A stretch of 45,695 nt of DNA from Prochlorococcus sp. AG-424-M03 (GTDB lineage Bacteria; Cyanobacteriota; Cyanobacteriia; PCC-6307; Cyanobiaceae), in NCBI GenBank assembly GCA_003213275.1, contig QCNH01000003.1, forward strand, positions 1 to 45,695, in the 5' to 3' direction. The notes under the pieces are model-generated. The model was not told where the DNA came from. It saw nothing but the letters and a program-made list of their open reading frames with translations, and did no database searches. Shown one piece after another: positions 109 through 15,519 of the stretch; position 1 is the stretch's first letter, and each line of letters begins with the position of its first letter. The position numbers and the translations under genes were made by a program.

Positions 109-819
109 TTAAACACTTAAAAATTTGTCAATAACTGACTGACTTAACTCATTAGTATTACCACTCGCGACAATACCACCGCGTTGCATGGCATAATATC
201 TATCTGCTTGCCTCACAAAATGTAAGTGTTGTTCAACTAATAAAACTCCAATACCTTTATTTCTAATTATCTGATTGATGGCATTTTCAATATCTAAAAC
301 TATATTGGGCTGAATACCTTCAGTTGGTTCATCAAGTAATAGTAGTTTAGGTTTACCCAGTAATGCTCTTGCAATAGCAAGCTGCTGTTGTTGTCCTCCA
401 CTAAGGTCTCCTCCTTTTCTTTGAAGAAAATCTTTTAGGATTGGAAACAAATCATAAATAAATGGGTCTATTTTACTGTTCTTAGATAATCCACCTGGCA
501 GAGACTCCATTCCTAACATTAGGTTCTCTTCAACTGATAAGTAAGGAATAATTTCTCTACCTTGAGGAACATAAGCCATTCCTTTTCTAGCCCTCAGATG
601 AGGTGCCTTTCTATTAATATTTTCTCCAATCAAAAAAATATCGCCTTTTTTCTGCTTTAGCAAACCGATAAGTGATTTCAATAATGTTGTTTTGCCAACT
701 CCATTTCTTCCTATTAAACAAACCATTTCTCCTGATTTAACATTTAAATCTACATCTCTTAGAATATGACTTTCGCCATAATAAGTATTTAATGATTTGA
801 TTTCTAGTAAATTTTCCAT
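109..819 (-). CDS. urtE: urea ABC transporter ATP-binding protein UrtE
   Basis: One of two ATPases that power the high-affinity urea importer at the cytoplasmic face of the plasma membrane. The 236-residue protein shows Walker A GRNGVGKT (residues 37-44), the ABC signature LSGGQ (139-143) and Walker B LLLLDE (159-164). This length and pattern are typical of LivF/UrtE-type ATPases. The ATG start follows the urtD stop by 1 base, making it the last gene of urtABCDE. The assignment to urea rather than branched-chain amino acids rests on the gene order and the adjacent urease genes. No terminator hairpin is obvious after its stop. Confidence 0.95.
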   Translation of the reverse strand: MENLLEIKSLNTYYGESHILRDVDLNVKSGEMVCLIGRNGVGKTTLLKSLIGLLKQKKGDIFLIGENINRKAPHLRARKGMAYVPQGREIIPYLSVEENLMLGMESLPGGLSKNSKIDPFIYDLFPILKDFLQRKGGDLSGGQQQQLAIARALLGKPKLLLLDEPTEGIQPNIVLDIENAINQIIRNKGIGVLLVEQHLHFVRQADRYYAMQRGGIVASGNTNELSQSVIDKFLSV

Positions 820-820
820 T

Positions 821-1570
821 TTAATCCTCAGGTCTTCCTAAATAAACGTCAATAACTTTTTTGTCCTTTTGTATGGTTTCCATTGTCCCCTCACATAATA
901 CTGTTCCTTGATTTAATACTGAAACATTACTATCAAGTCTTCTAATAAATTCCATATCGTGGTCTATTACAACAACAGTATTCTCTCCCGATAATGATTT
1001 TAATAGATCAGCAGTAAGATCAGTCTCTTCATCTGTTAAACCAGCAACAGGTTCATCTACCAACATTAAATCTGGCTTTTGTCCTACTAACATGGCTATT
1101 TCTAGCCATTGTTTTTGGCCATGAGATAAAGACCCTGCTTTTGAATTTTCTTTTTGGCCTAAATTCACAATATTCATAAGATGATCAATCTCTTCAATCT
1201 GCTTATCTTGAATATTTTTATTTATTAGGTTTAGGGGACTTTTTGGAGTTGATACTGATAATTCAAGATTTTCTTTGACTGTTAGATTTTCAAAGATTCT
1301 TGGACTTTGAAATTTTCTTCCTACTCCAAGTCTCGCTATCTTATGCTCTTTTCTTCCTACTAATGATTTCCCTTTGAAAATTACTTCTCCTTTTGTGGGT
1401 TTAACTTTTCCTGTTATTACATCAAGAAATGTTGTTTTGCCAGCACCATTGGGTCCTATTACAGCTCTTAATTCTCCTTTTTTTAATTTTAAATTAAGTT
1501 TGTTAAGAGCTAAAAATCCTTCAAAACTTACAGTTATATCGATTAAATTGAGTAGGTCTTTATTATTCAT
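821..1570 (-). CDS. urtD: urea ABC transporter ATP-binding protein UrtD
   Basis: Second ATPase of the urea importer, of the LivG type, 249 residues. Walker A is GPNGAGKT (39-46). The signature is LSHGQ (148-152), a variant of LSGGQ that also occurs in this subfamily. Walker B is LMLVDE (168-173), followed by the switch region VVVIDHD. The ATG start lies inside the end of urtC (8-base overlap), which suggests translational coupling. UrtD and UrtE should form the nucleotide-binding pair under the UrtB/UrtC membrane channel. Confidence 0.95.
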   Translation of the reverse strand: MNNKDLLNLIDITVSFEGFLALNKLNLKLKKGELRAVIGPNGAGKTTFLDVITGKVKPTKGEVIFKGKSLVGRKEHKIARLGVGRKFQSPRIFENLTVKENLELSVSTPKSPLNLINKNIQDKQIEEIDHLMNIVNLGQKENSKAGSLSHGQKQWLEIAMLVGQKPDLMLVDEPVAGLTDEETDLTADLLKSLSGENTVVVIDHDMEFIRRLDSNVSVLNQGTVLCEGTMETIQKDKKVIDVYLGRPED

Positions 1571-2693
1571 GATTTTGCTCCTTATTATTAATTTCTAAGC
1601 TTGGATAAGTTTCAATTTTTCTTTTTAAACCAAATCTCTGAAGAATATTTCTAGGACCATCTCCTTGGATCCATCCTAAAACACCTTCTGGCAGTGCTGT
1701 AACTACTAAAATAAATAAGCCTCCCTGAATAAACATCCAGCTAGCAGGTAGAGCTTCACTTACAAGACTTTTTGCATAGTTTATGAAAACTGCTCCTAGT
1801 ATTGCTCCTAATAAAGTTCCTCTACCTCCAACTGCAACCCAGATAACCATTTCTATAGAAAATGGAACAGTCATAAATTGAGGTGATACTATTCCGGACT
1901 GAACAGTATATAAAGCTCCCGAAATTCCAGCTAGTCCACCAGCGATAGAAAATATTATTGTCTTAAATATTACTGGATTGTAACCTGTAAACCTAACTCT
2001 TGGTTCATCATCTCTTATTCCTATAAGAATGTTGCCAAATCGTCCTTTAACTACCCACTTTGCAAAAAACCATGCCGCTATTACTAGTATTGATGTTAAC
2101 CAAAAGAATAGTCTCTGTATTGATTCGGAACCTACCATCTGACCAAATAGTAGGGTGACGTCTGTTTTTAATCCATTTGTTCCGTTTATAAGTTTTTGTT
2201 GCCCATTAAAAAAATTAAAGAATACAAGAAGAGAAGCTTGAGTAAGTATAGAAAAATATACCCCTTTGATTCTATTCCTGAAAACAAGAAATCCAATTAA
2301 ACCTGCAATTAATGCAGGAATAATCCAGATAGCGAAAAATGTGAAATATGGAGATTTAAATGGTTCCCAGAAAAAAGGTAATTTTTCTACACCATATAAA
2401 GCAAAAAATTCAGGAATATTATTTGGAAATTCAGAAGAACTGTTGATTTGCAAATACATTGCTGCACAATATCCACCTAGTGCAAAAAATATACCTTGTC
2501 CAAGACTTAATAAACCTGTATATCCCCAGATAAGATCAACGCCAAGAGCAACTATGGACAATGATAAGTATCTACCAAGTAGATTTAGTCTAAATACAGG
2601 AAGTAGTGTTGGTGCTGCAATAATTAAGGCTATTAATATTATCCAGAATGATAATACTATTTTTTTATCAAATTTAATTTTATTTTGGGACAT
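1563..2693 (-). CDS. urtC: urea ABC transporter permease UrtC
   Basis: Membrane permease of the LivM type, 376 residues, with many hydrophobic segments. Near residues 50-70 lies the family motif DLIWGYTGLLSLGQGIFFALGG, which is typical of LivM/UrtC. The C-terminal third contains a second conserved stretch with GGRGTLLGAILGA. Its ATG shares one base with the urtB stop (TAATG), and its end overlaps urtD by 8 bases, so urtB, urtC and urtD are tightly coupled. With UrtB it should form the transmembrane path for urea. Confidence 0.95.
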   Translation of the reverse strand: MSQNKIKFDKKIVLSFWIILIALIIAAPTLLPVFRLNLLGRYLSLSIVALGVDLIWGYTGLLSLGQGIFFALGGYCAAMYLQINSSSEFPNNIPEFFALYGVEKLPFFWEPFKSPYFTFFAIWIIPALIAGLIGFLVFRNRIKGVYFSILTQASLLVFFNFFNGQQKLINGTNGLKTDVTLLFGQMVGSESIQRLFFWLTSILVIAAWFFAKWVVKGRFGNILIGIRDDEPRVRFTGYNPVIFKTIIFSIAGGLAGISGALYTVQSGIVSPQFMTVPFSIEMVIWVAVGGRGTLLGAILGAVFINYAKSLVSEALPASWMFIQGGLFILVVTALPEGVLGWIQGDGPRNILQRFGLKRKIETYPSLEINNKEQNHE

Positions 2694-3847
2694 TAGTTTT
2701 CAACCATCCTTCCTTTTTGAGGGAATAAGCCTGTAGGTTTAAATTGTAAAAAAATAACTATTAATGCAAATATCATTACTCTTGCCATACTTGTTGTTGC
2801 AAAAAAATTAATTGTGTTTGAGATAGGTAAAGGCATATCTGGCCATATTGATAAGAGCCTTCCAGCTCCAATTAAATCTGTCATTATTCCTATTCCAAAG
2901 GAAGCAAGTACTGTTCCTAATAAGTTCCCTACTCCTCCGAGTACTACAACCATAAAACAACCAACTATATAATTTCCTCCAACATTTGGTCCTACAGAAC
3001 CTAAAAGTGATACTGCTACCCCGGCAACTCCTGCCAAGCCTGATCCTATGCCAAAGGTAATAATATCTACTTTTTCTGTCGATATACCAAGGCACTCACT
3101 CATTTGTCGGTTCTGTGTAACTGCTCTAATACGCATCCCCCAAGCACTTTGATTAAGAAATAATGTAATTGCTATTACAGAGATTAGTGTAATTATAATT
3201 ATCATTAATCTTGTTTTAGGAAATGCAGTTCCAATAATTTCTACTTGACCCCTCATCCATGACGGTGCTGTTACATCAACATTACGAGCACTTGCTCTAC
3301 TAAGTTTGCTTACAGAGGATGAGATTATGCTACCGCTCATGACCCCAGTTAAAGCTGCAAATATCCATGAACTAAATTTAAAATATTTGAAATTTATTGA
3401 TTCTTTTATTTTTAAAGAGAATGTTGTTGGTAAAAACAAACCAATTATCAGACTTATAACCAAACCTGTTCCATAAGCTAAAGGCACACTTCTAACAAAT
3501 TGTTGAAGGATTAAGCTTACGCCCCAAGTGGCGAGAAGTGTTTCTAGTGGACTTCCATAAAGCTTTCTTATTATAGTTTTTTCTAAGAGAATACCTACTA
3601 CTCCACTGACAATAAAAGATAAAAAAATTGAAACTATAATGTATGAATTATAGAAGGGCTTTAATATAGGTAATTTGAAAATTAATTGTGTAACGTATGT
3701 TGTGTAAGCTCCCAGCATCATAAGTTCTCCATGGGCAAGATTTATTACACCCATAAGCCCAAAAACAATTGCAAGACCTAATGCAGCAACAAGTAGTACG
3801 GATCCGATCGCTACACCATTAAAAAGACTATCTAGAAGTAACTCCAA
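2693..3847 (-). CDS. urtB: urea ABC transporter permease UrtB
   Basis: LivH-type permease of 384 residues. The N-terminal membrane region carries the family motif GLMGVINLAHGELMMLGAY (about residues 30-48). A second hallmark, GSGLAGVAGVAVSLLGSVGPNVG, lies in the C-terminal half. A central insert of about 60 residues makes it longer than a typical LivH protein, as is usual for UrtB. It lies 82 bases downstream of urtA, and that gap contains a strong hairpin, so its transcription probably depends on readthrough from the urtA promoter. Confidence 0.95.
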   Translation of the reverse strand: MELLLDSLFNGVAIGSVLLVAALGLAIVFGLMGVINLAHGELMMLGAYTTYVTQLIFKLPILKPFYNSYIIVSIFLSFIVSGVVGILLEKTIIRKLYGSPLETLLATWGVSLILQQFVRSVPLAYGTGLVISLIIGLFLPTTFSLKIKESINFKYFKFSSWIFAALTGVMSGSIISSSVSKLSRASARNVDVTAPSWMRGQVEIIGTAFPKTRLMIIIITLISVIAITLFLNQSAWGMRIRAVTQNRQMSECLGISTEKVDIITFGIGSGLAGVAGVAVSLLGSVGPNVGGNYIVGCFMVVVLGGVGNLLGTVLASFGIGIMTDLIGAGRLLSIWPDMPLPISNTINFFATTSMARVMIFALIVIFLQFKPTGLFPQKGRMVEN

Positions 3848-3874
3848 TTTAAAAAAATAAATATTAGATTATAT

Positions 3875-3908
3875 AAAATAAAAGGAGGTTAATACCTCCT
3901 TTTATTTT
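3875..3908 (-). terminator. 15-bp hairpin between urtA and urtB (terminator or attenuator)
   Basis: AAAATAAAAGGAGGT (3875-3889) and ACCTCCTTTTATTTT (3894-3908) are perfect reverse complements around the 4-base loop TAAT. On the minus strand the descending arm ends CCTCCTTTTATTTT, so the U-rich tract forms part of the stem, as in an intrinsic terminator. Its position after the solute-binding-protein gene suggests partial termination, which would give more urtA than urtBCDE transcript. That dosage role is inference. The sense arm also contains AAAGGAGGT, a perfect Shine-Dalgarno sequence that the stem would hide. Confidence 0.8.
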
Positions 3909-3929
3909 GAAGTGTAAGTTTTAGTTAAA

Positions 3930-5207
3930 TTAAAGCTTATACTTTTCTCCTTTTGAAGGATCTGTCCAATCGCATGCAAATCCTTTAGAACTTGGATGTT
4001 TTTGGTTCCATGCTTGAGGGAGAACAACTCCTGTCTCTTCAAGAATTGTAAAGCCACCTTCTGCATTAATCTGTCCAATTCTTACTGTTTGAGATAAGTG
4101 GTGATTAGGCATGACTTCGACAGGTCCTTGTGGAGCATCAAACTTTTGACCAACCAATGCTTCCCTAACTGCATTGTCGTCGAATGTTCCTGCATCTTCA
4201 ACTGCCTGTTTCCATAGGTAAACCATGTTATAAGCTGATTCTTGAGGGTCAGCTACAACACGATCTGCTCCCCATCTTTTTTTGAAATTTTTAGCAAATT
4301 TCTTAGATGCAGGAGTATCAATTGACATCATATAGTTCCAAGCACCGTAGTGACCTTCAAGGAACTCAGGACCAATTGTACTGATCTCTTCTTCAGCAAT
4401 AGAATAGTTCATTACGTAGTAACCACTTGAAGGAGTTATTCCCGCGTCTTGAATCTGTTTGAAGAATGCAACGTTTTGGTCACCATTAAGTGTATTGATT
4501 ATAATTCCACCTTCTGGTAAAGCTTTTTTGATTTTTGAGATAATTGGAGCAACTTCAGTATTACCTAATGGGAGGTAATCTTCTCCAACAACTTTACCTC
4601 CTAACTGTTTTACCTGAGCTTTTGTAATTGTGTTTGAGGTTCTTGGGAAAACATAATCTGATCCTACAAGGAAGAAATCTCCACCAGCTGCTGGAGAACG
4701 CTTATACATAAAATCTGTAGCAGGTTCTGACTGTTGGTTTGGTGTCGCTCCTGTGTAGAAAATGTTGTTAGAACATTCCTGAGCTTCATATTGAATTGGA
4801 TAGTAAAGGAAAGCATCCTTTGATTCGTAGACTGGTAACATTGCTTTTCTACTTGCAGATGTCCAACCACCAAATACGACAGGAACACCATCTTGGTCTA
4901 TAAGTTTTTTAGATTTTTCAGCAAAAGTAGGCCAGTCAGATGCGCCATCTTCAACTATGTACTCAATTTTGTAGCTTTTACCACCAACTTCTACACCACC
5001 GGCAGCATTAATCTCTTCAATAGCCATTTTTTCTGTATCAACAAGAGTTGATTCAGAGATTGCCATTGTTCCAGATAACGAATGCAAAATACCAACGGTT
5101 ACAGTGTCATCGAAACTTCCGGAGGTTCCTCCACCACCACATGAAGTTGCGGTAACAGCCAGTGAGGCAGTAGCTAATCCTGCCAGAATACGCCTTGAAA
5201 TTCTCAT
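3930..5207 (-). CDS. urtA: urea ABC transporter substrate-binding protein UrtA
   Basis: Extracytoplasmic urea receptor of 425 residues that delivers urea to UrtB/UrtC. The N-terminus has paired arginines (R5-R6 in SRRIL), a hydrophobic stretch and a cysteine at residue 23 after TATS. This looks like a lipoprotein signal that might use the Tat route. The mature part begins VTVGILHSLSGTMAISE, a signature of the UrtA/AmiC-like periplasmic-binding family, and the C-terminus is rich in UrtA-type sequence. It is the first gene of the urt operon, with an NtcA-like promoter about 80 bases upstream of the ATG and a hairpin after its stop. Confidence 0.95.
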   Translation of the reverse strand: MRISRRILAGLATASLAVTATSCGGGGTSGSFDDTVTVGILHSLSGTMAISESTLVDTEKMAIEEINAAGGVEVGGKSYKIEYIVEDGASDWPTFAEKSKKLIDQDGVPVVFGGWTSASRKAMLPVYESKDAFLYYPIQYEAQECSNNIFYTGATPNQQSEPATDFMYKRSPAAGGDFFLVGSDYVFPRTSNTITKAQVKQLGGKVVGEDYLPLGNTEVAPIISKIKKALPEGGIIINTLNGDQNVAFFKQIQDAGITPSSGYYVMNYSIAEEEISTIGPEFLEGHYGAWNYMMSIDTPASKKFAKNFKKRWGADRVVADPQESAYNMVYLWKQAVEDAGTFDDNAVREALVGQKFDAPQGPVEVMPNHHLSQTVRIGQINAEGGFTILEETGVVLPQAWNQKHPSSKGFACDWTDPSKGEKYKL

Positions 5208-5254
5208 GAATTCTTTTAATTAGGTAATAGACCCTCATTAAAGGGATAAAGTAA

Positions 5255-5296
5255 AAGTTATTAACGAGTGGGGATTCCTTTTGTATCAGTGGTAAC
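5255..5296 (-). promoter_or_regulatory. NtcA-type promoter of urtA
   Basis: On the minus strand GTTACCACTGATAC (5296-5283) matches the NtcA consensus GTA-N8-TAC with one mismatch (GTT). Exactly 22 bases later is TAACTT (5260-5255), which fits the TAN3T -10 box. The GTA-N8-TAC / N22 / TAN3T layout is the known architecture of NtcA-activated class II promoters in cyanobacteria. It would place transcription start about 40 bases before the urtA ATG and switch the transporter on under nitrogen limitation. Sequence and spacing are seen directly; NtcA control is inferred. Confidence 0.75.
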
Positions 5297-5340
5297 TTTT
5301 TGTTGAATCCAATATATAACAAATAATTATTTTTCTAGTT

Positions 5341-5946
5341 TCAATTGTTGGGTATTTGTGATTTTAAAAATTGAGTTATTTCTTCAACTCCTTTCCCAGT
5401 ACTTAGGTTGGTAAAAAACCAAGGTTTCCCTTTTCTCATGAATTCCGTATCACTTTTCATAATATTTAAATTTGCACCAACCATATCTGCTAGGTCAATT
5501 TTGTTTATTAATAATAAATCTGACCTTGTTATCCCTGGTCCACCTTTTCTAGGAATTTTGTCTCCAGCAGATACATCAATCACATATATTGATAAATCTA
5601 CAAGTTCTGGACTAAAACTAGATGCTAAATTATCGCCTCCACTTTCTACAAAAACAAAATCTAAAGGTTTATATTTATTTTCTAAATCTAAAACTGCATT
5701 TTTATTTAAGGAACAATCCTCTCTTATCGCTGTATGAGGACAACCTCCTGTTTCTACACCAATAATCCTTCCTTCCTCTAAAACTTTTTTCTTTATAAGA
5801 AAGTTTGCATCTTCTTTAGTGTAGATATCATTTGTGACAACTGCTATTTCATAATTTTCTTTCAGGCTTAAGCATAGAGTCTCTACTAATGCAGTTTTTC
5901 CTGAACCTACAGGCCCAGCAACTCCTACTCTCAATTTACTACTCAT
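5341..5946 (-). CDS. ureG: urease accessory GTPase UreG
   Basis: SIMIBI-class GTPase that drives nickel delivery into apo-urease. The 201-residue protein has a P-loop GPVGSGKT (11-18), the metal-binding Cys-Pro-His motif (C69-P70-H71) within [13 protein letters not shown], the switch stretch VESGGDNLA and the guanine-specificity motif NKID. It lies 3 bases after ureF and is the last of ureE-ureF-ureG. The following 133 bases lead to urtA and contain the urtA promoter. Length and motifs are normal for UreG, and no histidine-rich extension is present. Confidence 0.96.
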
Positions 5947-5949
5947 AAA

Positions 5950-6636
5950 TTAATTTCTAAAAAGTTTTGTATAAAGGTCATTATGCTGTTGTTGTGCCAT
6001 AGCTAAACCTACATTGCCAAAATATATGTCATCAATTTGTTTGTCTATAATTTCTTTAGAAACTTTTGAAATTATTGCTAATAAATCTTTCTGAATTAAT
6101 TGTGCTTTTGTTGAACCCATAGGAATAATCCTTAATGCTGCACTTAGTTGGTTTGCACTCCAAGCGTAGAAAAAATTTTCTACCATTTCTAACTTCTTAA
6201 TCTCAAAACAATAACAAGCCCAACTCCACGCTAATGGCCAGGAGTTTTTTTTATTTTTTTCATATAAATATTTAAATCCAAATTCTTTGGTTAAATTAAA
6301 GAGAGATTTCGCCATTTGATTTTGTTGTTCTCTCATTTCGAGAGAGTCCTTTGATGAGAGTATCCACTTATCCAAACTCAATAGCTTTTGCAAGTTACTT
6401 TTTAAATTTTTGGATTCGTTTATCTCATTGAAAATATCAAAAAAATCGAGTAAGAGTTTTGCATCTAGTCTGATCTGGCCAATTTTTAGTTCAGTTAAGA
6501 TTAATTCTTTTACCGAATTTGAGTCATTTAAATTTTTATTATGAAGATAACTCTCCATTCCCTCTGAATAACAAAATCCTCCAACTGGTAAATTAGGGCT
6601 TATTAATAAATATTTTAATAAGTGACTTTTACTCAT
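5950..6636 (-). CDS. ureF: urease accessory protein UreF
   Basis: Helical chaperone of 228 residues that works with UreD and UreG in the urease maturation complex. The family hallmarks are the N-terminal LLKYLLISPNLPVGGFCYSEG-like region (residues 8-27) and the late AALRIIPMGSTKAQ stretch. It is more lysine- and asparagine-rich than most homologues, in line with the low GC. The ATG lies within the end of ureE (8-base overlap), and ureG follows after 3 bases. Confidence 0.93.
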   Translation of the reverse strand: MSKSHLLKYLLISPNLPVGGFCYSEGMESYLHNKNLNDSNSVKELILTELKIGQIRLDAKLLLDFFDIFNEINESKNLKSNLQKLLSLDKWILSSKDSLEMREQQNQMAKSLFNLTKEFGFKYLYEKNKKNSWPLAWSWACYCFEIKKLEMVENFFYAWSANQLSAALRIIPMGSTKAQLIQKDLLAIISKVSKEIIDKQIDDIYFGNVGLAMAQQQHNDLYTKLFRN

Positions 6637-7078
6637 GATTATGGGCGCCTTTTGCAGGAAAAAATTTTTTCTTGGTATTTACGATATCAACATTAAAATT
6701 TTTTAGCATATTTTCAATTACGTAATCACTTTTTGTTAGAAGAATATCTTCTTTAATTTCTACTTCTACGTGTCTATTTCCTAGATGATATGCAGTTTTA
6801 ATAAGTTCAATTTTAGAATTTGAACTTATTTCAATTAGATTTTCAGTTTTGGCAATTATCTCTACATAAAAATTGGACTCATTAGTTGAAAGAATATCTC
6901 CATCATTTAATTTGCGCTTTCTAGGTAATTGTAAAATTATTTCTTGATCACAATCAGTTAATCTTTTACCTCTTATGATTCTTCTTTCATCTGAACTTAA
7001 GGTAAGTTTTAAAAAAGAACCTAATGGAGGTTTTTCCTTAATCCAATCAGTTACAACAATTTGTTTATTCATTTTCAT
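6629..7078 (-). CDS. ureE: urease accessory nickel chaperone UreE
   Basis: Cytosolic metallochaperone that hands nickel to the UreDFG complex. The N-terminal domain has the UreE pattern LTLSSDERRIIRGKRLTDCDQEIILQLPR in two blocks. The C-terminal domain contains the conserved AYHLGNRHVEVE segment, whose histidine is part of the nickel site. The protein ends AKGAHNHE, with only two histidines, so it lacks the long histidine tail of some enterobacterial UreE proteins. In-frame starts are TTG 7084, ATG 7078 and ATG 7072; I chose 7078, but 7072 (MNKQIVV) is equally possible. It diverges from ureD. Confidence 0.9.
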   Translation of the reverse strand: MKMNKQIVVTDWIKEKPPLGSFLKLTLSSDERRIIRGKRLTDCDQEIILQLPRKRKLNDGDILSTNESNFYVEIIAKTENLIEISSNSKIELIKTAYHLGNRHVEVEIKEDILLTKSDYVIENMLKNFNVDIVNTKKKFFPAKGAHNHE

Positions 7079-7093
7079 AATCAAGATTTTTGG

Positions 7094-7116
7094 TTACTTT
7101 AATTTAGTAATTAAAG
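7094..7116. promoter_or_regulatory. overlapping palindromes between ureE and ureD
   Basis: Two interleaved inverted repeats sit in the short divergent spacer: TTACT-N7-AGTAA (7094-7110) and CTTTAAT-ttagta-ATTAAAG (7097-7116). No good GTA-N8-TAC site is present. The position suggests an operator or divergent promoter element, but the spacer is very AT-rich, so chance symmetry is possible. Confidence 0.35.
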
Positions 7117-7126
7117 AAAACAATAT

Positions 7127-8029
7127 ATGATTAAAACTTCATGGGAAGGTAATTGTTTCATAAATTTCTTTAATAATAAAGAAAGTATAGGAAATGTTGA
7201 TAAAACAATATTTAAATCTAAATCAACTTCTCCCTATAAGTTATTAAAGTCTACTCATGATCAGGAGGGAAGATGCATTTTACCAGTTCTTCATACTGCA
7301 GGGGGTTTGGTTGGAGGAGATTTGCTTAAGTTTGAAGTAAATCTTGAAAAAGACTCTAAGGTTTTGTTGACAACTTCTTCAGCTCAGAAAGTATATGGAT
7401 CAGTAGGTAGATCTAAAATTAATCCAAAAGGAATTTTTTCAAAACAAAAAAATCTTATAAACATTCTTGATAATTCTCATTTGGAATATTTACCCCAAGA
7501 AACAATTATCTTTGCTAATGGTTTATATGATCAAAAGTTTAATGTTTCTATTTCAGAAACTTCAAGTTTTTTATTTACCGATTTAATAAGACTTGGAAGA
7601 TCTTCTTCTGGAGAATCTATAGAAAGTGGAGTTTTTAGGTCCAAATTAGAAATTATGAGAAATAATGATATATATGATGATTGGGAATATGTTGATCAAA
7701 TTGAATTATCTAAATCAAGTTTTGTTGCCAAGTCAGGTATGGATTGCATGCCCGTTTTTGGATCCTTAATTTGGATTTGCCAAAAAGATTTTTCCAAATC
7801 AAAAATAAATAATTTAGTGGGATATATAAAAAATATTTTCAATGAAAGTGATAATCATTTATCAATTGGGATTCTTGAAAATGGTATCTCTGTAAGATTC
7901 TTAGGAAGTTCTTCTCAAGATGCGAGGAAATGTTTTTTTTGTATTTGGAAACAAATTAGGTCTGTTGGTGGATTTTGTGAGCCAAAATATCAGGGTGTAT
8001 GGCCTTTACAAGATTCTATGAATTATTAA
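7127..8029 (+). CDS. ureD: urease accessory protein UreD (UreH)
   Basis: Scaffold protein of 300 residues that binds apo-urease together with UreF and UreG during nickel insertion. Recognisable family stretches are [12 protein letters not shown] (about residues 55-66), [11 protein letters not shown] and [14 protein letters not shown], with [15 protein letters not shown] later. It starts with ATG 42-54 bases from the divergent ureE start and heads the plus-strand run ureD-ureA-ureB-ureC. The gap to ureA is 50 bases. Confidence 0.93.
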
Positions 8030-8079
8030 TTATGTTCAGAAAGAACATTTTTTAATAATTTATAGATTAGTTTTTTATT

Positions 8080-8382
8080 ATGCATCTTTCACCTCAAGAA
8101 AAGGATAAATTGTTGATTTTTTCGGCTGCCCTCTTAGCTGAAAGAAGACTTAATCGAGGTCTAAAGCTTAATTATCCTGAAACAATTGCTTTTTTGAGTT
8201 TTCAAGTTCTTGAAGGAGCTAGAGATGGAAAAAGTGTAAGTCAATTAATGTCAGATGGAACTACCTGGCTTTCAAAATCACAAGTTATGGATGGCATTCC
8301 TGAAATGGTTGATGAAGTTCAGATAGAAGCGGTTTTTCCTGATGGGACTAAATTAGTTACTATTCACAATCCAATTAATTAG
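8080..8382 (+). CDS. ureA: urease gamma subunit UreA
   Basis: Smallest structural subunit of urease, 100 residues. It opens [17 protein letters not shown] and contains [14 protein letters not shown] and the [18 protein letters not shown]-like end, all typical of UreA. The three-gene bacterial arrangement ureA-ureB-ureC is intact, unlike the fused subunits of some organisms. It is followed by ureB after 2 bases. Confidence 0.97.
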
Positions 8383-8384
8383 TT

Positions 8385-8705
8385 ATGAGTAATTTAATTC
8401 CTGGCGAAATAATTCCTGAACAAGGTGATATCGAATTAAATCTTGGTAAGGAAGTTATACAAGTAAAAGTTTCTAATTTTGGAGATAGACCTGTGCAAGT
8501 TGGATCTCATTATCATTTTTTTGAAGCTAATAAGGCCTTAATTTTTGATCGAGAAATAACATTTGGTATGCGTCTTAATATTCCTGCAGGAACAGCAATT
8601 AGATTTGAACCTGGAGATACAACTGATGTCAAATTAGTTCCATATAAAGGTTTAAGAATTGCAAATGGTTTTAATTCATTAGTTAACGGTTCTTTAGATA
8701 CTTAA
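8385..8705 (+). CDS. ureB: urease beta subunit UreB
   Basis: Structural subunit of 106 residues. Characteristic segments are [16 protein letters not shown] at the start, [17 protein letters not shown] in the middle and [18 protein letters not shown] after it. Spacing is 2 bases after ureA and 4 before ureC, consistent with a single (UreABC)3 expression unit. Confidence 0.97.
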
Positions 8706-8709
8706 AATT

Positions 8710-10419
8710 ATGTCCTATAAAATTGACAGAAATACTTATGCTCAAACCTACGGACCAACTACCGGGGATAGAGTAAGACTTGCTGATACTGAACTTTTTA
8801 TAGAAGTAGAAAAGGATTTTACTACTTACGGAGATGAAGTTAAATTCGGAGGAGGTAAAGTTATTCGAGATGGGATGGGACAGTCCCAAGTAACAAGAGG
8901 CGATGGAGCTGTCGATACAGTAATAACTAATGCTTTGATCGTAGATTGTTGCGGAATAATTAAGGCTGATGTAGGAATAAAAGATGGAATTATTATTGAA
9001 ATCGGTAAGGCTGGTAATCCTGATATCCAGGATAAAGTCGATATTGTTATTGGTGCCTCAACAGAAGTAATAGCTGGAGAAGGCAATATTCTTACTGCAG
9101 GTTCAATAGATACCCATATTCACTTTATTTGTCCCCAACAAATTGAGACAGCACTAGCTTCAGGAATTACAACCATGTTGGGAGGAGGAACTGGTCCTGC
9201 AACTGGTACAAATGCCACTACCTGTACTCCGGGTTCTTTTCATATTTCACGAATGCTTCAATCTGCAGAAGCATTTCCCATGAATTTAGGTTTTTTTGGA
9301 AAAGGAAATTCAACCAACGAGAGAAATCTTATTGATCAGGTTGAAGCTGGTGCATGTGGATTGAAGCTTCATGAGGATTGGGGAACGACTCCTTCTACAA
9401 TAAATTCTTGTCTTAATGTCGCAGATAAGTTTGATGTTCAAGTATGTATTCATACTGATACTTTGAATGAAGCCGGCTTTGTTGAAGATACCATCAACGC
9501 TATTGCAGGAAGAACTATTCATACCTTTCATACCGAAGGAGCTGGTGGAGGTCATGCTCCAGACATTATTAAAATTTGTGGAGAAAAAAATGTTCTTCCA
9601 AGTAGTACTAATCCAACAAGACCCTATACGAGGAACACATTAGAAGAACATCTTGACATGTTAATGGTTTGTCATCATTTAGATTCTAAAATTCCAGAAG
9701 ATATTGCATTTGCTGAATCAAGGATCAGAAGAGAGACTATTGCTGCTGAGGATATCTTGCATGATATGGGTGCCTTTTCAATTATTGCTAGTGATTCTCA
9801 GGCTATGGGAAGAGTTGGTGAAGTAATTACAAGAACTTTTCAAACAGCTCATAAAATGAAAGTGCAAAGAGGTCCTCTATCGCAGGATTCAGATAGAAAT
9901 GATAATTACAGAGTCAAGAGATATATTTCTAAAGTCACAATTAATCCTGCAATAGCTCATGGTATTGATAAATATGTTGGATCTATAGAAAAGGGTAAAA
10001 TTGCGGATTTGGTATTGTGGAAACCATCCTTTTTTGCTGTAAAGCCTGAATTAGTTATTAAAGGAGGATCTATAGTTTGGTCCCAAATGGGTGATGCAAA
10101 CGCTTCAATTCCTACTCCAGGTCCTGTTCATGGTCGACCTATGTTTGCAAGTTTCGGCCGATCTCTAATAAAGAGTTCATTCACTTTTTTAAGTAAAAAT
10201 TCAATTGATCAAAATATTCCAAATAAATTAGGATTACAAAAGAATTGTATTCCTGTAGAAAATACAAGAAATATCAATAAATTAAACTTAAAATTCAATT
10301 CTAAACTGCCAAATATTTCTGTTGACCCTCAAACTTACGAAGTTTTTTCTGATGGGGAACTTCTTACTTGTGAACCACTTGATGAGGTCCCGATGGCTCA
10401 GAGGTACTTTTTACTTTAA
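8710..10419 (+). CDS. ureC: urease alpha (catalytic) subunit UreC
   Basis: Nickel amidohydrolase that hydrolyses urea to ammonia and carbamate. All active-site residues are visible with a constant +2 offset from Klebsiella numbering: H136 and H138 (DTHIHF), the lysine that is carbamylated to bridge the nickels K219 ([10 protein letters not shown]), H248, H274, the flap C321-H322 and D362 (SDSQAMGR). The length of 569 residues is full size. The stop overlaps the stop of the convergent gpgS-like gene by 4 bases, with no room for a separate terminator. Confidence 0.98.
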
Positions 10420-11642
10420 AAGTTTTTAATTAATTCTTTTTCTGTTGTCTGTATATCTTGTGACCCAGCAATTGCCAAATCTTCTTGCAGTTTGTTCTCA
10501 CATGACAGAACTCTTGACCAACTTGGTAACTGCTGTGTAGTAGGGCAAGCTAGGTAATCTTCTGTAGCAGGTCTCAATAGTTTAGCGAATTTTTGTACTG
10601 ATAGCTCTTCTTCGTGCCTATCATATGGAAGTTGATTAACTGCTGAATCTAGTCCAAATTGTTTTACCCGATCTTCTCCAACTCTTTTGTAAAGAACTTC
10701 TAAAGTTGCTAGTTGAGTGCTAGTTAAGGTTTCTGCTTGATGCTCCATAAGACCTCTTAAAACACTTGAAAGTATTTCAGTACACATTTTTTGCAATCCT
10801 TCTCTAGAAGAATTACCAATGTTTTTATGCTTGTGATCAAATAAACCTAAGTCTACTTGGGCTATTTTGGAAGTTCTTACGTTTCTATAAACCTCAGATA
10901 ATAAACCTATTTCTAAACCCCAGTCACAGGGTATTCTTAAATTCATAGCAAGGTCTTTAGTGAAAGCAAACTCACCTGCTAATGGATATCTAAATGATTG
11001 TAGATATTGTAAAAAAGGACCTTTCCCAACTAACTGTTCAAGACTTGCCAATAGAGGACCCACAAATAATCTTGTGGCTCTACCTTGTAATTGGTTTGTT
11101 TCTAAAGATAACCTGCTGTAGAAAGCTTTTACATAAGATATTCCATATGATTCATCTAGAAGAGGAAGTATCATTCTTGAAGGATACAAAGGACTAAAAG
11201 TTCTTATATCAGCATCAAAAAGAGCAACAACATCTGATTTTCTAGTGGCAACTCCTATTCCCTGCCAGACAGCCCATCCTTTGCCTGGCGTTCCTAAAAG
11301 TTCCAACCCATTTTTTTCTTGGTTTTTTAACAGCTCTATTACAGATGGGGAATTAGTCCATTGAACATGAACTGGAAATGGCATTGAGTCGAAAAAGGAT
11401 TTTGCTGCTTTAACTTGCTCAGCAGTCTTTGCTGAAAGAGCAATAACTAATTCATTTAACCCTGTAAGGTTTTTTAAAACTTCTTTTATATCTTTTAATG
11501 CTGGACGTTCAAACTCTTCATATAAACAAGGAATTAAAATACTCGTTGATCTTTTTTTAAGACTTTTGTTTAATTCTTTAATTAGATCGTTAGTTACACC
11601 GTATTCATGTATTGTTGTGATTAACCCTTGTTGAAAGTCCAT
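10416..11642 (-). CDS. gpgS: glucosyl-3-phosphoglycerate synthase (GpgS-like glycosyltransferase)
   Basis: GT-A fold glycosyltransferase of 408 residues, expected to join NDP-glucose and 3-phosphoglycerate to glucosyl-3-phosphoglycerate, the first step to glucosylglycerate. The N-terminus has the donor-binding strand [10 protein letters not shown] (34-43). The metal-binding D-x-D is D143-A-D145 in [11 protein letters not shown], and a conserved [11 protein letters not shown] stretch follows later. It lies head to head, 50 bases apart, with a phosphorylase-like gene and two further genes that complete the same pathway. That context is why I choose GpgS over mannosyl-type relatives. Donor specificity cannot be read from the sequence. 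Confidence 0.82.
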
Positions 11643-11692
11643 TTTCTAATTGATGTGCAGAATAGTGTTAATACTTCGATAATTTTTTCAAA

Positions 11693-13453
11693 GTGAAGCA
11701 AATTGATTCAGAGAAAAAATTAGATAGATTAAAACTTTATAAATTGTTGAAAACAATTTATTCAAATAATACTACAGAAGAAATTAATTTTATTTCAAAC
11801 CAATTATTACAGATTTTAGATAATTTCTCAGAGAAATCTGCTTATGAAGAAATAACTGACAAAGAAAAGTGGAATGAATCTCATTCGGTTTTAATAACTT
11901 ATGCAGATAGTATTTATAAAAATGGGGAGCCTACATTAGTTACTCTTCGAGACTTGTTAAGTAAACATTTTGGCAGTCTTTCTAAAGTTGTACACATTCT
12001 TCCTTTCCTAAAATCAACAAGCGATGGTGGGTTTGCTGTATCAAGTTATGATTCCCTAGAAGAAAAATTTGGTGGTTGGGATGATCTCAAAAGTATTTCT
12101 AAAAATCATATTTTGATGGCTGATTTAGTATTAAATCATGTTTCATCATCTCACCCATGGGTTCAGCAATTTATTAAATCCCAAAAACCAGGAATTTTAA
12201 ATGTTTTTTCACCAAAAGAAAATCTTGATTGGTCAAATGTAGTTAGGCCAAGAAGTTCCTCCTTGTTTTCTCTAATAAATACTGAAGATGGTCCCAAACA
12301 AGTTTGGACAACCTTTGGTCCAGATCAAATTGATTTGAATTGGCATAATCCAAAAATGACTCTTGAGTTTCTTAACTTAATTATTACTTATTTATCTAAT
12401 GGGATTAAATGGTTTAGGCTTGATGCTGTGGGTTTTATTTGGAAGGAATCAGGAACTACATGCTTACATTTGCCTAAAGCACATTCAATTGTAAAAATTT
12501 TAAGAGTTCTATTAAATAATCTTCTTGACGATGGAGTTTTAATAACAGAAACAAACGTTCCCCAGAAGGAAAATTTATCTTATCTTATTCCAGAGGATGA
12601 AGCCCATATGGCATATAATTTCCCATTGCCACCTCTTCTCTTGGAGGCAATTATTACTTCGAGAGCAGATATTCTAAACTCATGGATTTTTGATTGGCCT
12701 ATATTACCCGACGATACTACTCTCTTTAATTTTACTGCATCACATGATGGTGTTGGGTTAAGAGCTCTTGAAGGTCTAATGAATGAAGAGAGGATTAAAG
12801 ATTTATTAATTAATTGTGAAAAAAGAGGGGGTCTAGTAAGTCATAGACGTTTATCAAATGGTGAAGACAAACCTTATGAATTGAATATTAGTTGGTGGAG
12901 CGCAATGGAAGATTCAAGTAGAGATTCTAATCTATTCCAGTTTGAGAGATTTATCTTGACTCAGTTATTAGTAATGGCACTTAAAGGTGTTCCTGCCTTT
13001 TATTTGCCAGCATTACTTGCTTCAGAAAATGATATTAGAAGTTTTTCTATGACAGGTCAAAGAAGAGATCTCAATAGAGAAAAATTTAAATTAGAGAATC
13101 TTTTAGCTGTTTTAAATAATCCTGAATCTAATGCCAATAAAAACTTAAAATATCTTCGTAATGCTATGGGTGTTAGGTCACAATTAGTGCAATTTCACCC
13201 TTGTTCTGAAATGAAATGTTTGTCTAAGGGTAGAAGCGATATAGTAGTAATCAAAAGATGCAAAGGTCCAGATTCTATTTTTGCAATCCATAATATGACA
13301 GCAAATAAAATTAATTATCAATTGAATGATAAAGATCTACCAAACATCATTGATAATGAATTTAATATGCGAGATTTTTTATCATCCAATAAATACAATT
13401 GGAAAAATATTAGTCTTGATCCTTTTCAAGTTATTTGGCTTGGCGCTTTATAA
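11693..13453 (+). CDS. GH13 sucrose-phosphorylase-like enzyme, probable glucosylglycerate phosphorylase
   Basis: Cytosolic (beta/alpha)8 enzyme of 586 residues from the sucrose-phosphorylase branch of GH13. Visible catalytic residues are the nucleophile D244 (FRLDAVGF), the acid/base E286 (ITETNVP) and the transition-state stabiliser D352 (SHDGVG), with LVLNHVSSSHPW as the conserved region I. No signal peptide is present. Members of this branch act on sucrose, sucrose-6-phosphate or glucosylglycerate. The flanking synthase, phosphatase and glycerate kinase make glucosylglycerate + Pi to glucose-1-phosphate + glycerate the best guess. The start is GTG. The phosphatase follows after 1 base. Plain sucrose phosphorylase remains an alternative. 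Confidence 0.8.
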   Translation: MKQIDSEKKLDRLKLYKLLKTIYSNNTTEEINFISNQLLQILDNFSEKSAYEEITDKEKWNESHSVLITYADSIYKNGEPTLVTLRDLLSKHFGSLSKVVHILPFLKSTSDGGFAVSSYDSLEEKFGGWDDLKSISKNHILMADLVLNHVSSSHPWVQQFIKSQKPGILNVFSPKENLDWSNVVRPRSSSLFSLINTEDGPKQVWTTFGPDQIDLNWHNPKMTLEFLNLIITYLSNGIKWFRLDAVGFIWKESGTTCLHLPKAHSIVKILRVLLNNLLDDGVLITETNVPQKENLSYLIPEDEAHMAYNFPLPPLLLEAIITSRADILNSWIFDWPILPDDTTLFNFTASHDGVGLRALEGLMNEERIKDLLINCEKRGGLVSHRRLSNGEDKPYELNISWWSAMEDSSRDSNLFQFERFILTQLLVMALKGVPAFYLPALLASENDIRSFSMTGQRRDLNREKFKLENLLAVLNNPESNANKNLKYLRNAMGVRSQLVQFHPCSEMKCLSKGRSDIVVIKRCKGPDSIFAIHNMTANKINYQLNDKDLPNIIDNEFNMRDFLSSNKYNWKNISLDPFQVIWLGAL

Positions 13454-13454
13454 A

Positions 13455-14252
13455 ATGATTGAAAATTCTTCTCTTTGGGTTGTTAGTGATGTAGATGGTA
13501 CTTTAATGGATCACTCATATGATTTAACGCCTGCAAAAGAAACTATAAAAAAACTACAAAAATTATCAATACCTGTAATTCTTTGTACAAGCAAGACAGC
13601 ATCTGAAGTTAAAGTTATTAGGAATGATCTTAATTTAACTGATCCTTATATCGTTGAAAATGGTGCAGCAATATATGGTGAATCTCTTGAAAAGTTTAAT
13701 GGGGAAATTATTCTTGGTAAAAAATATAAATTACTTGAAGAAATCTTAAATCATATTTCTAATGAAATTGATTATGAACTTATTCCACTTAATAATCTCA
13801 CTGATCAAGAAGCAACTGATTTAACAGGCTTAAAAGGTAATTCATTGAATTTAATGCGTGATAGACATTGGAGTATGCCTTTTTTAAATCCACCCAGCTT
13901 TTTAGAAGAGAAAATTAATATTTGTTGTAAAAAGTTTGATGTAGATATTTTTAAAGGAAATAGAATGAGTCACTTATTATCTACAGATTCTAATAAAGGT
14001 AAAGCAATAAATACTCTTAAAAAATATTCAAATATTAAAAATATTCAAATTATAGGTTTGGGTGATTCTCCAAATGATTTACCTTTACTTTTAAACTCAG
14101 ATATTAAAGTTGTTATACCTGGAAAAGATGGCCCTAACTTAAATTTACTAAATCAATTAAAAGATTTGGAATTTATATTAGCTTCTGAACCTAACGGATA
14201 TGGTTGGAAAAATGAAATCAATAAATTAATAAGTAAGTTAGAACTAATTTAG
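13455..14252 (+). CDS. gpgP: HAD-family glucosyl/mannosyl-3-phosphoglycerate phosphatase
   Basis: HAD hydrolase of the MPGP/Cof-like subfamily, 265 residues, expected to dephosphorylate glucosyl-3-phosphoglycerate to glucosylglycerate. Motif I is D12-V-D14-G-T (SDVDGTLMDH), followed by LCTSKTASEV and YIVENGAAIYG. The late motif GLGDSPNDLPLL supplies the acidic magnesium ligands. The frame stays open upstream, but the ATG at 13455, 1 base after the phosphorylase stop, is the sensible start because the protein then begins right before motif I. The name follows the pathway; mannosyl-3-phosphoglycerate phosphatase is the nearest sequence label. Confidence 0.85.
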   Translation: MIENSSLWVVSDVDGTLMDHSYDLTPAKETIKKLQKLSIPVILCTSKTASEVKVIRNDLNLTDPYIVENGAAIYGESLEKFNGEIILGKKYKLLEEILNHISNEIDYELIPLNNLTDQEATDLTGLKGNSLNLMRDRHWSMPFLNPPSFLEEKINICCKKFDVDIFKGNRMSHLLSTDSNKGKAINTLKKYSNIKNIQIIGLGDSPNDLPLLLNSDIKVVIPGKDGPNLNLLNQLKDLEFILASEPNGYGWKNEINKLISKLELI

Positions 14253-14256
14253 GAAA

Positions 14257-15201
14257 GTGAACGATTTAGATATTAATTTTCCACTTGATAAATTTGAAAA
14301 ATTAATTATTGATATTGGTTGGGAATCCCTCGATGATTGGTACAATTTTTGGAATAATAGAAAAAATATTTTTTCAATTGATCAATATTGGCATAATAAT
14401 GTAAATGATGATTGGATTTGGGGTTTAGCTTTACCTCTTTTATCTCAGGCTTATAAATTTAAAAATAATTCTTCTGACAGAAAAATAATCGGTATCTCGG
14501 CACTCCCTGGGACAGGTAAAACAACTTTAGGAAAATGGCTTGAAGCCATGTCGGAAAAATTAAATTTCAAAATTTCTGTTATTTCAATTGATGATTTTTA
14601 TCTACCTTCAGATGAAATGAAATTAGCAATTATGAATAATCCTTGGAATGTCTCTAGAGGTTTCCCTGGTAGTCATTCTGTAAAATTAATGCATGAAAAA
14701 TTATTAAATTGGAAAATAAATGGAGAATTAAATGTACCTGTTTTCGATAAATCTTTAAGAAATGGTTTAGGAGATAGATCTCATTGGAGATCAGATACTC
14801 CTGATATATTAATAATCGAGGGATGGTTTTTGGGAATAGAACCTTTCTTAAATGTTGTTAATTATCAAGATATAAATTTAGCAGAGTTGAGTCCTCTTGA
14901 ATCTTCTTATAGATGTATCATTCAAAATAATCTAAAAAAATATTTAGATGTCTGGAATTTAATAAACAATATTTGGCACTTAAAGCCATTGAAGTTTGAA
15001 TACATGAATATTTGGAAGAGAAATCAAGAAAAAGAAATGTTTTTACAGAAAGGAAAAGCACTTCAAGATGAAAAATTACTTAATTTTTTGAGAATGCTAA
15101 ATGTTTCTATTCCTCATAAAAGTTTTGATGTTATAAATTCTTATGCCTTGTTTTTAATAGATCAAGAAAGAAATCTCATTGAGGCTAAATTAAATTTCTA
15201 A
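14257..15201 (+). CDS. glyK: D-glycerate 3-kinase-like P-loop kinase
   Basis: P-loop kinase of 314 residues like plant GLYK/cyanobacterial glycerate kinase, which phosphorylates D-glycerate to 3-phosphoglycerate. Motifs are ALPGTGKTT (82-90), ISIDDFYLP, RGFPGSHSVKLM, VPVFDKSLRNGLGDRS and DILIIEGWFLG. The start is GTG, 4 bases after the phosphatase stop, so it is the last gene of a three-gene plus-strand unit. Cyanobacteria also use this enzyme in photorespiration. Here its place in the glucosylglycerate cluster suggests it also recovers glycerate released by the phosphorylase. Confidence 0.88.
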   Translation: MNDLDINFPLDKFEKLIIDIGWESLDDWYNFWNNRKNIFSIDQYWHNNVNDDWIWGLALPLLSQAYKFKNNSSDRKIIGISALPGTGKTTLGKWLEAMSEKLNFKISVISIDDFYLPSDEMKLAIMNNPWNVSRGFPGSHSVKLMHEKLLNWKINGELNVPVFDKSLRNGLGDRSHWRSDTPDILIIEGWFLGIEPFLNVVNYQDINLAELSPLESSYRCIIQNNLKKYLDVWNLINNIWHLKPLKFEYMNIWKRNQEKEMFLQKGKALQDEKLLNFLRMLNVSIPHKSFDVINSYALFLIDQERNLIEAKLNF

Positions 15202-15291
15202 TATTTTTTAAATTTGTTTATTTTCAGTAATTTTTTATACTTTTTTTGTAGCTTTAAATGGTGTTTAATTGAATATATTTTTGGTTTAGTG

Positions 15292-15519
15292 ATGGTTGAG
15301 TTTTCTTACAAAAATGAAGGATGTAGGATGGTTGTATTGAGATGTATTGGTCCATCAAATTTTTTTTTAGAGAGAGTTTTATTCCCAACTGACATTCTTA
15401 CTTTTATGGCCCCAAACGATTCAAGAGTTGAAATCTGGGGAAATGAATTATATGGTCCTAAGTTGGAAGAGAGGATAAGAATTTCTGCTGATAATGAAGA
15501 TTCGACCTTAGTGGCTTAG
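15292..15519 (+). CDS. DUF1830 family protein
   Basis: Small soluble cyanobacterial protein with the DUF1830 pattern: CRMVVLRCIGPSNFFLERV, then LFPTDILTFMAPNDSRVEIWG. The frame extends upstream to a TTG at 15214, but that stretch is hydrophobic and unlike the family. The ATG at 15292 gives a 75-residue protein of normal size. Function is unknown. Confidence 0.8.
   Translation: MVEFSYKNEGCRMVVLRCIGPSNFFLERVLFPTDILTFMAPNDSRVEIWGNELYGPKLEERIRISADNEDSTLVA

Follow-up and report, generated by a model that had tools for sequence, protein, structure and literature searches.

The window analysed here is a stretch of 45,695 nucleotides from Prochlorococcus sp. AG-424-M03 (contig QCNH01000003.1). It carries a cluster of four genes, at positions 10416-15201, that most probably encodes the synthesis and the recovery of glucosylglycerate (GG) in high-light-type Prochlorococcus. 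We put the probability of this reading, which is drawn from sequence comparison, at roughly 0.87. The cluster consists of a gpgS-like synthase gene on the minus strand and three plus-strand genes, which encode a GH13 enzyme, a GpgP-like phosphatase and a plant-type glycerate kinase. The presence of these four genes together at one locus, stated in a preliminary description of the window, is confirmed by profile matches, solved structures and conserved order. The biochemistry proposed there (GG synthesis, phosphorolysis and return of glycerate) is well supported as a prediction. A make-and-recycle cluster is right in substance, already in print and ordinary for the group.

In the proposed pathway GpgS would join nucleoside diphosphate glucose (NDP-glucose) and 3-phosphoglycerate into glucosyl-3-phosphoglycerate. 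GpgP would then dephosphorylate this product, yielding GG, a compatible solute. The GH13 enzyme, a predicted member of subfamily GH13_18, would cleave GG phosphorolytically, releasing glucose-1-phosphate and D-glycerate, and the plant-type kinase would turn glycerate back into 3-phosphoglycerate; this kinase is presumably the general glycerate kinase of the cell and most likely serves photorespiration too. Because GG contains no nitrogen and is a solute of cyanobacteria that are very abundant in the ocean, its making and recovery bear on the carbon and nitrogen economy of these cells and on carbon exchange with neighbouring bacteria.

A predicted glucosylglycerate phosphorylase

The GH13 gene (11693-13453, plus strand, GTG start) encodes a protein of 586 residues that matches PF00128 with 65 bits (cut-off 22). 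D244, E286 and D352 align with D192, E232 and D290 of BaSP, the nucleophile, acid/base and transition-state aspartate of GH13_18, and the glucosyl-binding subsite residues of the subfamily are conserved. At the site of the (T/S)ETN motif the protein has TETN, in which Asn (N288) replaces the His that follows the acid/base in sucrose phosphorylases. In loop A, E396 aligns with Q345 of BaSP; Glu is likewise found in E. coli YcjM, which is annotated as a glucosylglycerate phosphorylase (GGaP). TETN and the loop-A Glu are given as marks of GGaP in PMC7178133 (PMC numbers refer throughout to excerpts of the papers), where exchanging Asn275 or Glu383 in the Meiothermus silvanus enzyme is reported to lower activity severely. 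By motif, these two residues should match N288 and E396 of the window protein. T/SETN and the loop-A Glu are present in all 25 family GH13 proteins placed in our tree and in all eight cyanobacterial GH13 proteins from other families, and in none of five sucrose, sucrose-phosphate or glucosylglycerol-type phosphorylases. Local alignment of the window protein with YcjM gives 34% identity and 319 bits, compared with 137-157 bits for the same five phosphorylases.

The tree included 25 of the 45 family GH13 proteins, some taken from a partial match range. The amylosucrase-like rows used as outgroup were cut to their longest stop-free stretch, and 7qqi (deposited as 'Aamy domain-containing protein') was grouped with the sucrose phosphorylases by motif. 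Without the outgroup, a branch with support of 100/100 divides the five sucrose, sucrose-phosphate and glucosylglycerol-type rows from YcjM together with 33 cyanobacterial rows; with it the five stay one group, again at 100/100. The cyanobacterial proteins stand apart from sucrose phosphorylases in both trees, for each of which the tree program warned of long branches, and a single clade with YcjM depends on the root. The preliminary description had named clustering with true sucrose phosphorylases as the result that would speak against a GG function. The tree gives no such clustering, an outcome that favours the original proposal.

The enzyme might instead be a sucrose phosphorylase, or a dual enzyme like XpGP of Xylanomonas (PMC11009771), and recycle sucrose too. 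Its best NCBIfam match is indeed the sucrose phosphorylase model TIGR03852 (sucrose_gtfA); XpGP acts on both sucrose and GG according to PMC11009771, and sucrose is among the major solutes that PMC11631117 gives for Prochlorococcus NATL2A. We regard this alternative as decidedly unlikely, and sucrose phosphorylase was rejected as an assignment: the match of 158 bits lies far under the model cut-off of 334, Glu and Asn take the places of Gln and His at the key sites, the protein falls outside the group formed by the five phosphorylases, and its co-occurrence with gpgS is perfect (13 of 13 genomes, see below). The predicted GGaP function is well supported: by the motif and the tree, by the resemblance to a GGaP that has been characterised, by the constant linkage and by this co-occurrence.

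Synthase and phosphatase

The synthase gene (10416-11642, minus strand) encodes a gpgS-like glucosyl-3-phosphoglycerate synthase of 408 residues. It matches the models NF040724 (GpgS_Meth; E 1e-120, model positions 1-400 of 402) and NF010496 (1.1e-30), and contains the motifs PGKG, DAD and GEF. The profile search gave no Pfam match for it. The closest solved structures are GpgS proteins, for example 7pdo (1.2e-17).

The phosphatase gene (13455-14252, plus strand, 265 residues) matches NF001215 with 546 bits (cut-off 488) and TIGR01486 with 302 bits (cut-off 165), which places the product among the HAD-IIB phosphatases of the GpgP/MpgP (mannosyl/glucosyl-3-phosphoglycerate phosphatase) family; the motifs DVDGT and GDSPND are present. 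The mechanical listing of open reading frames gives 13326-14252 (308 residues). We set the start at the ATG at 13455 because none of the family-specific profile matches starts before residue 44 of that longer frame.

The best phosphatase model is named for mannosyl-3-phosphoglycerate phosphatase, and PMC2874817 writes 'glucosyl glycerate or mannosylglycerate' for Synechococcus WH8102. These points would suit a mannosylglycerate or mixed solute, with a synthase that uses GDP-mannose and a phosphatase acting on mannosyl-3-phosphoglycerate. Such a pathway is extremely improbable here, given that the synthase matches GpgS models and structures, that the subsite residues conserved in the GH13 protein bind a glucosyl group (role from PMC7178133), and that PMC11631117, citing Klahn 2010, gives GG as a major solute of NATL2A. 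The sugar donor of the synthase would be an NDP-glucose.

Linkage, gene order and co-occurrence

Counts for close loci refer to the best 80 of 195 loci found; with the window they make 81 rows, a duplicate of the window (L083) being left out. Among named loci, single-cell contigs of Prochlorococcus come nearest, with GH13 identities of up to 92%. The order gpgS (minus), GH13 (plus), GpgP (plus) is identical in 80 of 80 loci, and the kinase gene follows GpgP in 78, the remaining two (L050 and L076) breaking off inside GpgP. The plus-strand genes lie close together (1 base between GH13 and phosphatase, 4 bases between phosphatase and kinase) and may be transcribed together.

Within the window's family, 45 of 101 genomes (the window's included) have a GH13 gene of the window type at 1e-160 or better. 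In all 45 gpgS adjoins it on the opposite strand, and in 44 the phosphatase gene adjoins it on the same strand; in G083 the latter is on another contig. Weaker GH13 matches (other GH13 enzymes), a gpgS fragment in G060 and second pieces of split matches were dropped from these counts. The divergent gpgS and GH13-gpgP genes are a fixed three-gene module.

Across the phylum, in a sample of 146 genomes that includes the window's, the same 13 have GH13 (E <= 1e-60) and gpgS (E <= 1e-30). Five belong to the window's family and eight come from four other families. The two genes lie far apart or on separate contigs in five of the 13 (G102, G160, G202, G208 and G211); outside the family the association thus does not require the genes to be neighbours. 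The gpgS matches of G202 and G211 were flagged with one stop, that of G211 being codon 401, where the gene ends. The naive chance of a 13/13 coincidence is 8e-19, a figure that treats related genomes as if they were independent.

Glycerate kinase and its distribution

The last gene of the cluster (14257-15201, plus strand, GTG start) encodes a plant-type (class III) D-glycerate 3-kinase of 314 residues. It had no Pfam match, and NCBIfam gave only matches to P-loop kinases below the cut-offs. A phmmer comparison with solved structures put D-glycerate 3-kinases on top (7xpc, E 4.4e-17; 6ckg, 5.5e-15), and the motifs GTGKT (P-loop), SIDDFY and DKS are present.

A threshold of E <= 0.001 gives a plant-type kinase match in 97 of the 101 family genomes. 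The match is strong (1e-20 or better) in 89; the other eight (E 8.9e-20 to 5e-6, mostly partial) are perhaps other P-loop kinases. Among the 45 genomes with the module, a strong match lies within 2 kb of the phosphatase gene in 21 and elsewhere in another 21, and three have only a weak match elsewhere. The 21 genomes with the kinase beside the module are all small, about 1.6-1.9 Mb (the incomplete assembly of the window's genome aside). The 24 with no match beside it are mostly larger genomes, and those with the kinase elsewhere mostly exceed 2 Mb. The kinase occurs without the other three genes in 43 family genomes by strong matches, or 48 with the weak ones.

Searches with PF02595 and PF05161, which we take to be the class I and class II glycerate kinases, both gave matches in named control genomes. 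PF02595 kinases were found in two of the 101 family genomes, both among the four that have no plant-type kinase, and PF05161 kinases in none; the plant-type kinase is thus the only glycerate kinase found in the sample of the window's genus. None of the three types was found in G007 and G053.

The preliminary description had counted the kinase as part of a dedicated locus. This does not hold in the family, where the kinase is mostly without or distant from the other three genes: 43 genomes carry a strong match in their absence, and in 21 of the 45 module genomes it lies elsewhere. With 89 of 101 genomes having it mostly apart from the module, it is probably a shared photorespiratory kinase. Class III kinases close photorespiration in plants and are present in some cyanobacteria (PMC10970406). 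The simplest reading of the distribution would be a general kinase shared with photorespiration that was later placed behind gpgP in small-genome lineages. Its wide occurrence suggests that GG recovery borrows a photorespiratory enzyme.

Purifying selection and the intergenic spacer

All four cluster genes are under purifying selection. Median ratios of nonsynonymous to synonymous substitution (dN/dS) against the window are 0.039 for gpgS, 0.095 for GH13, 0.136 for the phosphatase and 0.204 for the kinase, with 0.062 for the flanking ureC, in near-full-length ungapped matches only (71-79 of the 80 loci per gene overall, 75-79 for the four cluster genes). The GTG start of the GH13 gene is kept in 81 of 81 rows.

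The spacer between the divergent gpgS and GH13 genes (11643-11692) is 50 bp long, also in 81 of 81 rows. Its identity to the window is 94% (median of 80), compared with about 70% for the four-fold sites in the genes on either side, so that the spacer itself is under constraint; it is probably a control region for both genes. The spacer consensus holds a 12-bp palindrome, AGTATTAATACT, and a palindrome of at least 10 bp is present in 59 of 81 rows, the window copy being imperfect. An equally good palindrome arises in 3.2% of shuffles of the consensus. The spacer might serve the two divergent genes as a common promoter or operator.

Direction and cost of the cycle

One full turn can be counted as the synthase step, loss of phosphate, phosphorolysis, phosphorylation of glycerate with ATP and recharging of glucose-1-phosphate with NTP. 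By bookkeeping from the established reactions it would cost a net two phosphoanhydride (ATP) equivalents, pyrophosphate hydrolysis aside. If GG were hydrolysed instead, phosphorylation of glucose would cost a third. The 'little loss' of glucosyl-bond energy first claimed for this cycle is accordingly only relative, at two ATP equivalents per turn, one fewer than with hydrolysis.

The phosphorylase could also work mainly in the other direction, making GG from photorespiratory glycerate and glucose-1-phosphate, with gpgS and gpgP as a second route. The neighbouring kinase shares glycerate with the phosphorylase, which would suit such a role. With millimolar phosphate and abundant GG in the cell, phosphorolysis is nevertheless the expected direction. 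A relative, G055, retains gpgS and gpgP beside a broken phosphorylase gene, and in that genome the pair would make GG without it. GH13_18 reactions are reversible (PMC11009771), but PMC11631117 classes the phosphorylase-route genes as recycling, and in dark-tolerant NATL2A their change was opposite to that of the synthesis genes. We therefore hold GG formation as the main role of the phosphorylase to be very improbable. A related idea, which we also think unlikely, starts from a single kinase acting in photorespiration as well as in GG recovery, so that glycerate would be a shared node: the reversible phosphorylase could draw glycerate from photorespiration into GG while glucose-1-phosphate is abundant and let it go when this is scarce. 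GG would then be a buffer linking photorespiration with the solute pool, and both gene directions would be set from the strongly conserved 50-bp region.

Several observations weigh against the reading of the cluster as one for GG synthesis and recovery. The synthase score of 403 bits is under the NCBI cut-off of 700 for its best model, NF040724; this model was made for another branch, so the name means GpgS-like here. With the amylosucrase-like outgroup, YcjM falls on the sucrose-phosphorylase side of the tree (96/88) and not with the cyanobacterial rows, a placement made uncertain by long branches. Scanning for promoters gave nothing like a sigma-70 site within the spacer, and sites in the region were as many as in shuffles. 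Finally, the synthesis genes kept by G055 suggest that at least one lineage can do without recovery by the GH13 enzyme.

Apparent loss of module genes, and neighbouring genes

In G055 (L107, 4685-5434) intact gpgS and GpgP genes enclose only a remnant of GH13, interrupted by stops in every frame, and the kinase is kept. This relative seems to have lost recovery while synthesis was retained, and the loss of the phosphorylase alone makes it a natural deletion for the study of recovery. In G014 (L108, 3473-5342) an intact glycerate kinase gene lies next to what is left of gpgS, which contains a stop, and neither GH13 nor GpgP was found there; this genome may represent a later stage of module loss. 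Both are draft assemblies, in which assembly faults are possible. The kinase is present in G029, which gave no match to gpgS, GH13 or GpgP, and all three genomes agree with the reading of a shared kinase.

The window has a G+C content of 26-37% in 2-kb steps, and its source assembly was judged 63% complete. The cluster is flanked by ureC, which meets gpgS tail to tail with an overlap of 4 bases, and by a BacA/UppP-type gene (PF02673). A small DUF1830 gene (15214-15519) comes next after the kinase in 78 of the 80 close loci. Genes for a branched-chain/urea-type ABC transporter and urease adjoin the cluster at 109-10419; UreE was assigned by Pfam, and ureA, B, C and D by reading of the sequence. 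The genes for a nitrogen-free solute and those for urea use may be chance neighbours. No ureC was found near the loci outside group g1 (L107-L120).

At L112 (5557-6330) a TauE/SafE-type transporter gene runs tail to tail into gpgS, as in the genomes of group g32. Such a gene is present in 38 of 101 genomes. Only six of these, all of group g32, have it about 35 bases or less from gpgS; the distance is 0.4 kb in G001 and 3-6 kb in G006, G022, G050 and G061. Ten genomes carry it without any intact GG gene. It was rejected as a general part of the cluster, since elsewhere in the family it occurs without a tie to the GG genes.

Comparison with known systems

Locus L112, which we presume to be that of Prochlorococcus NATL2A, has the same arrangement as the window: gpgS on the minus strand, and GH13, GpgP and the glycerate kinase on the plus strand. 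The neighbour of gpgS differs, being the TauE/SafE gene in L112 and ureC in the window. PMC11631117 (ISME Commun 2024) describes a 'glucosylglycerate metabolism operon' in NATL2A for synthesis of GG and its recycling to glucose-1-phosphate and 3-phosphoglycerate. It reports that in dark-tolerant cells synthesis transcripts go down and recycling transcripts go up. The paper also reports an adjacent transporter gene, which is perhaps the TauE/SafE gene of group g32. In the excerpt of PMC7178133, glycerate kinase, gpgS or phosphatase genes are said to be frequent companions of GGaP genes, and that of PMC11009771 states that putative sucrose phosphorylase genes tend to lie close to GG genes. The pairing of synthesis with phosphorolytic recycling, which had been singled out for attention, is thus not new but already published (PMC11631117, PMC7178133), and the window confirms for a further genome a pathway that had been predicted and published. 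Our literature search, whose coverage did not extend to most subscription papers, found no assay of a picocyanobacterial enzyme from the cluster.

An earlier osmoregulation model for Synechococcus WH8102 (PMC2874817, 2010) includes gpgS, gpgP and a gene that shares the operon of gpgP. Like the window, SYNW2434-2436 comprise the two predicted genes of GG synthesis and, between them, a third, which that paper assigns to the operon of GpgP. Its excerpt does not name SYNW2435, the gene in the middle, as a phosphorylase; from the constant gene order it would be the GH13 gene.

Known GGaPs (EC 2.4.1.352) include those of Meiothermus silvanus and Spirochaeta thermophila and E. coli YcjM (PMC7178133). 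The window enzyme has TETN, the loop-A Glu, the catalytic residues and nearby kinase, synthase or phosphatase genes in common with them. It differs in belonging to a cyanobacterial branch, and the characterised GGaPs listed in the excerpt of PMC11009771 include no cyanobacterial one. The YcjM gene of E. coli sits instead with ABC transporter and kojibiose phosphorylase genes.

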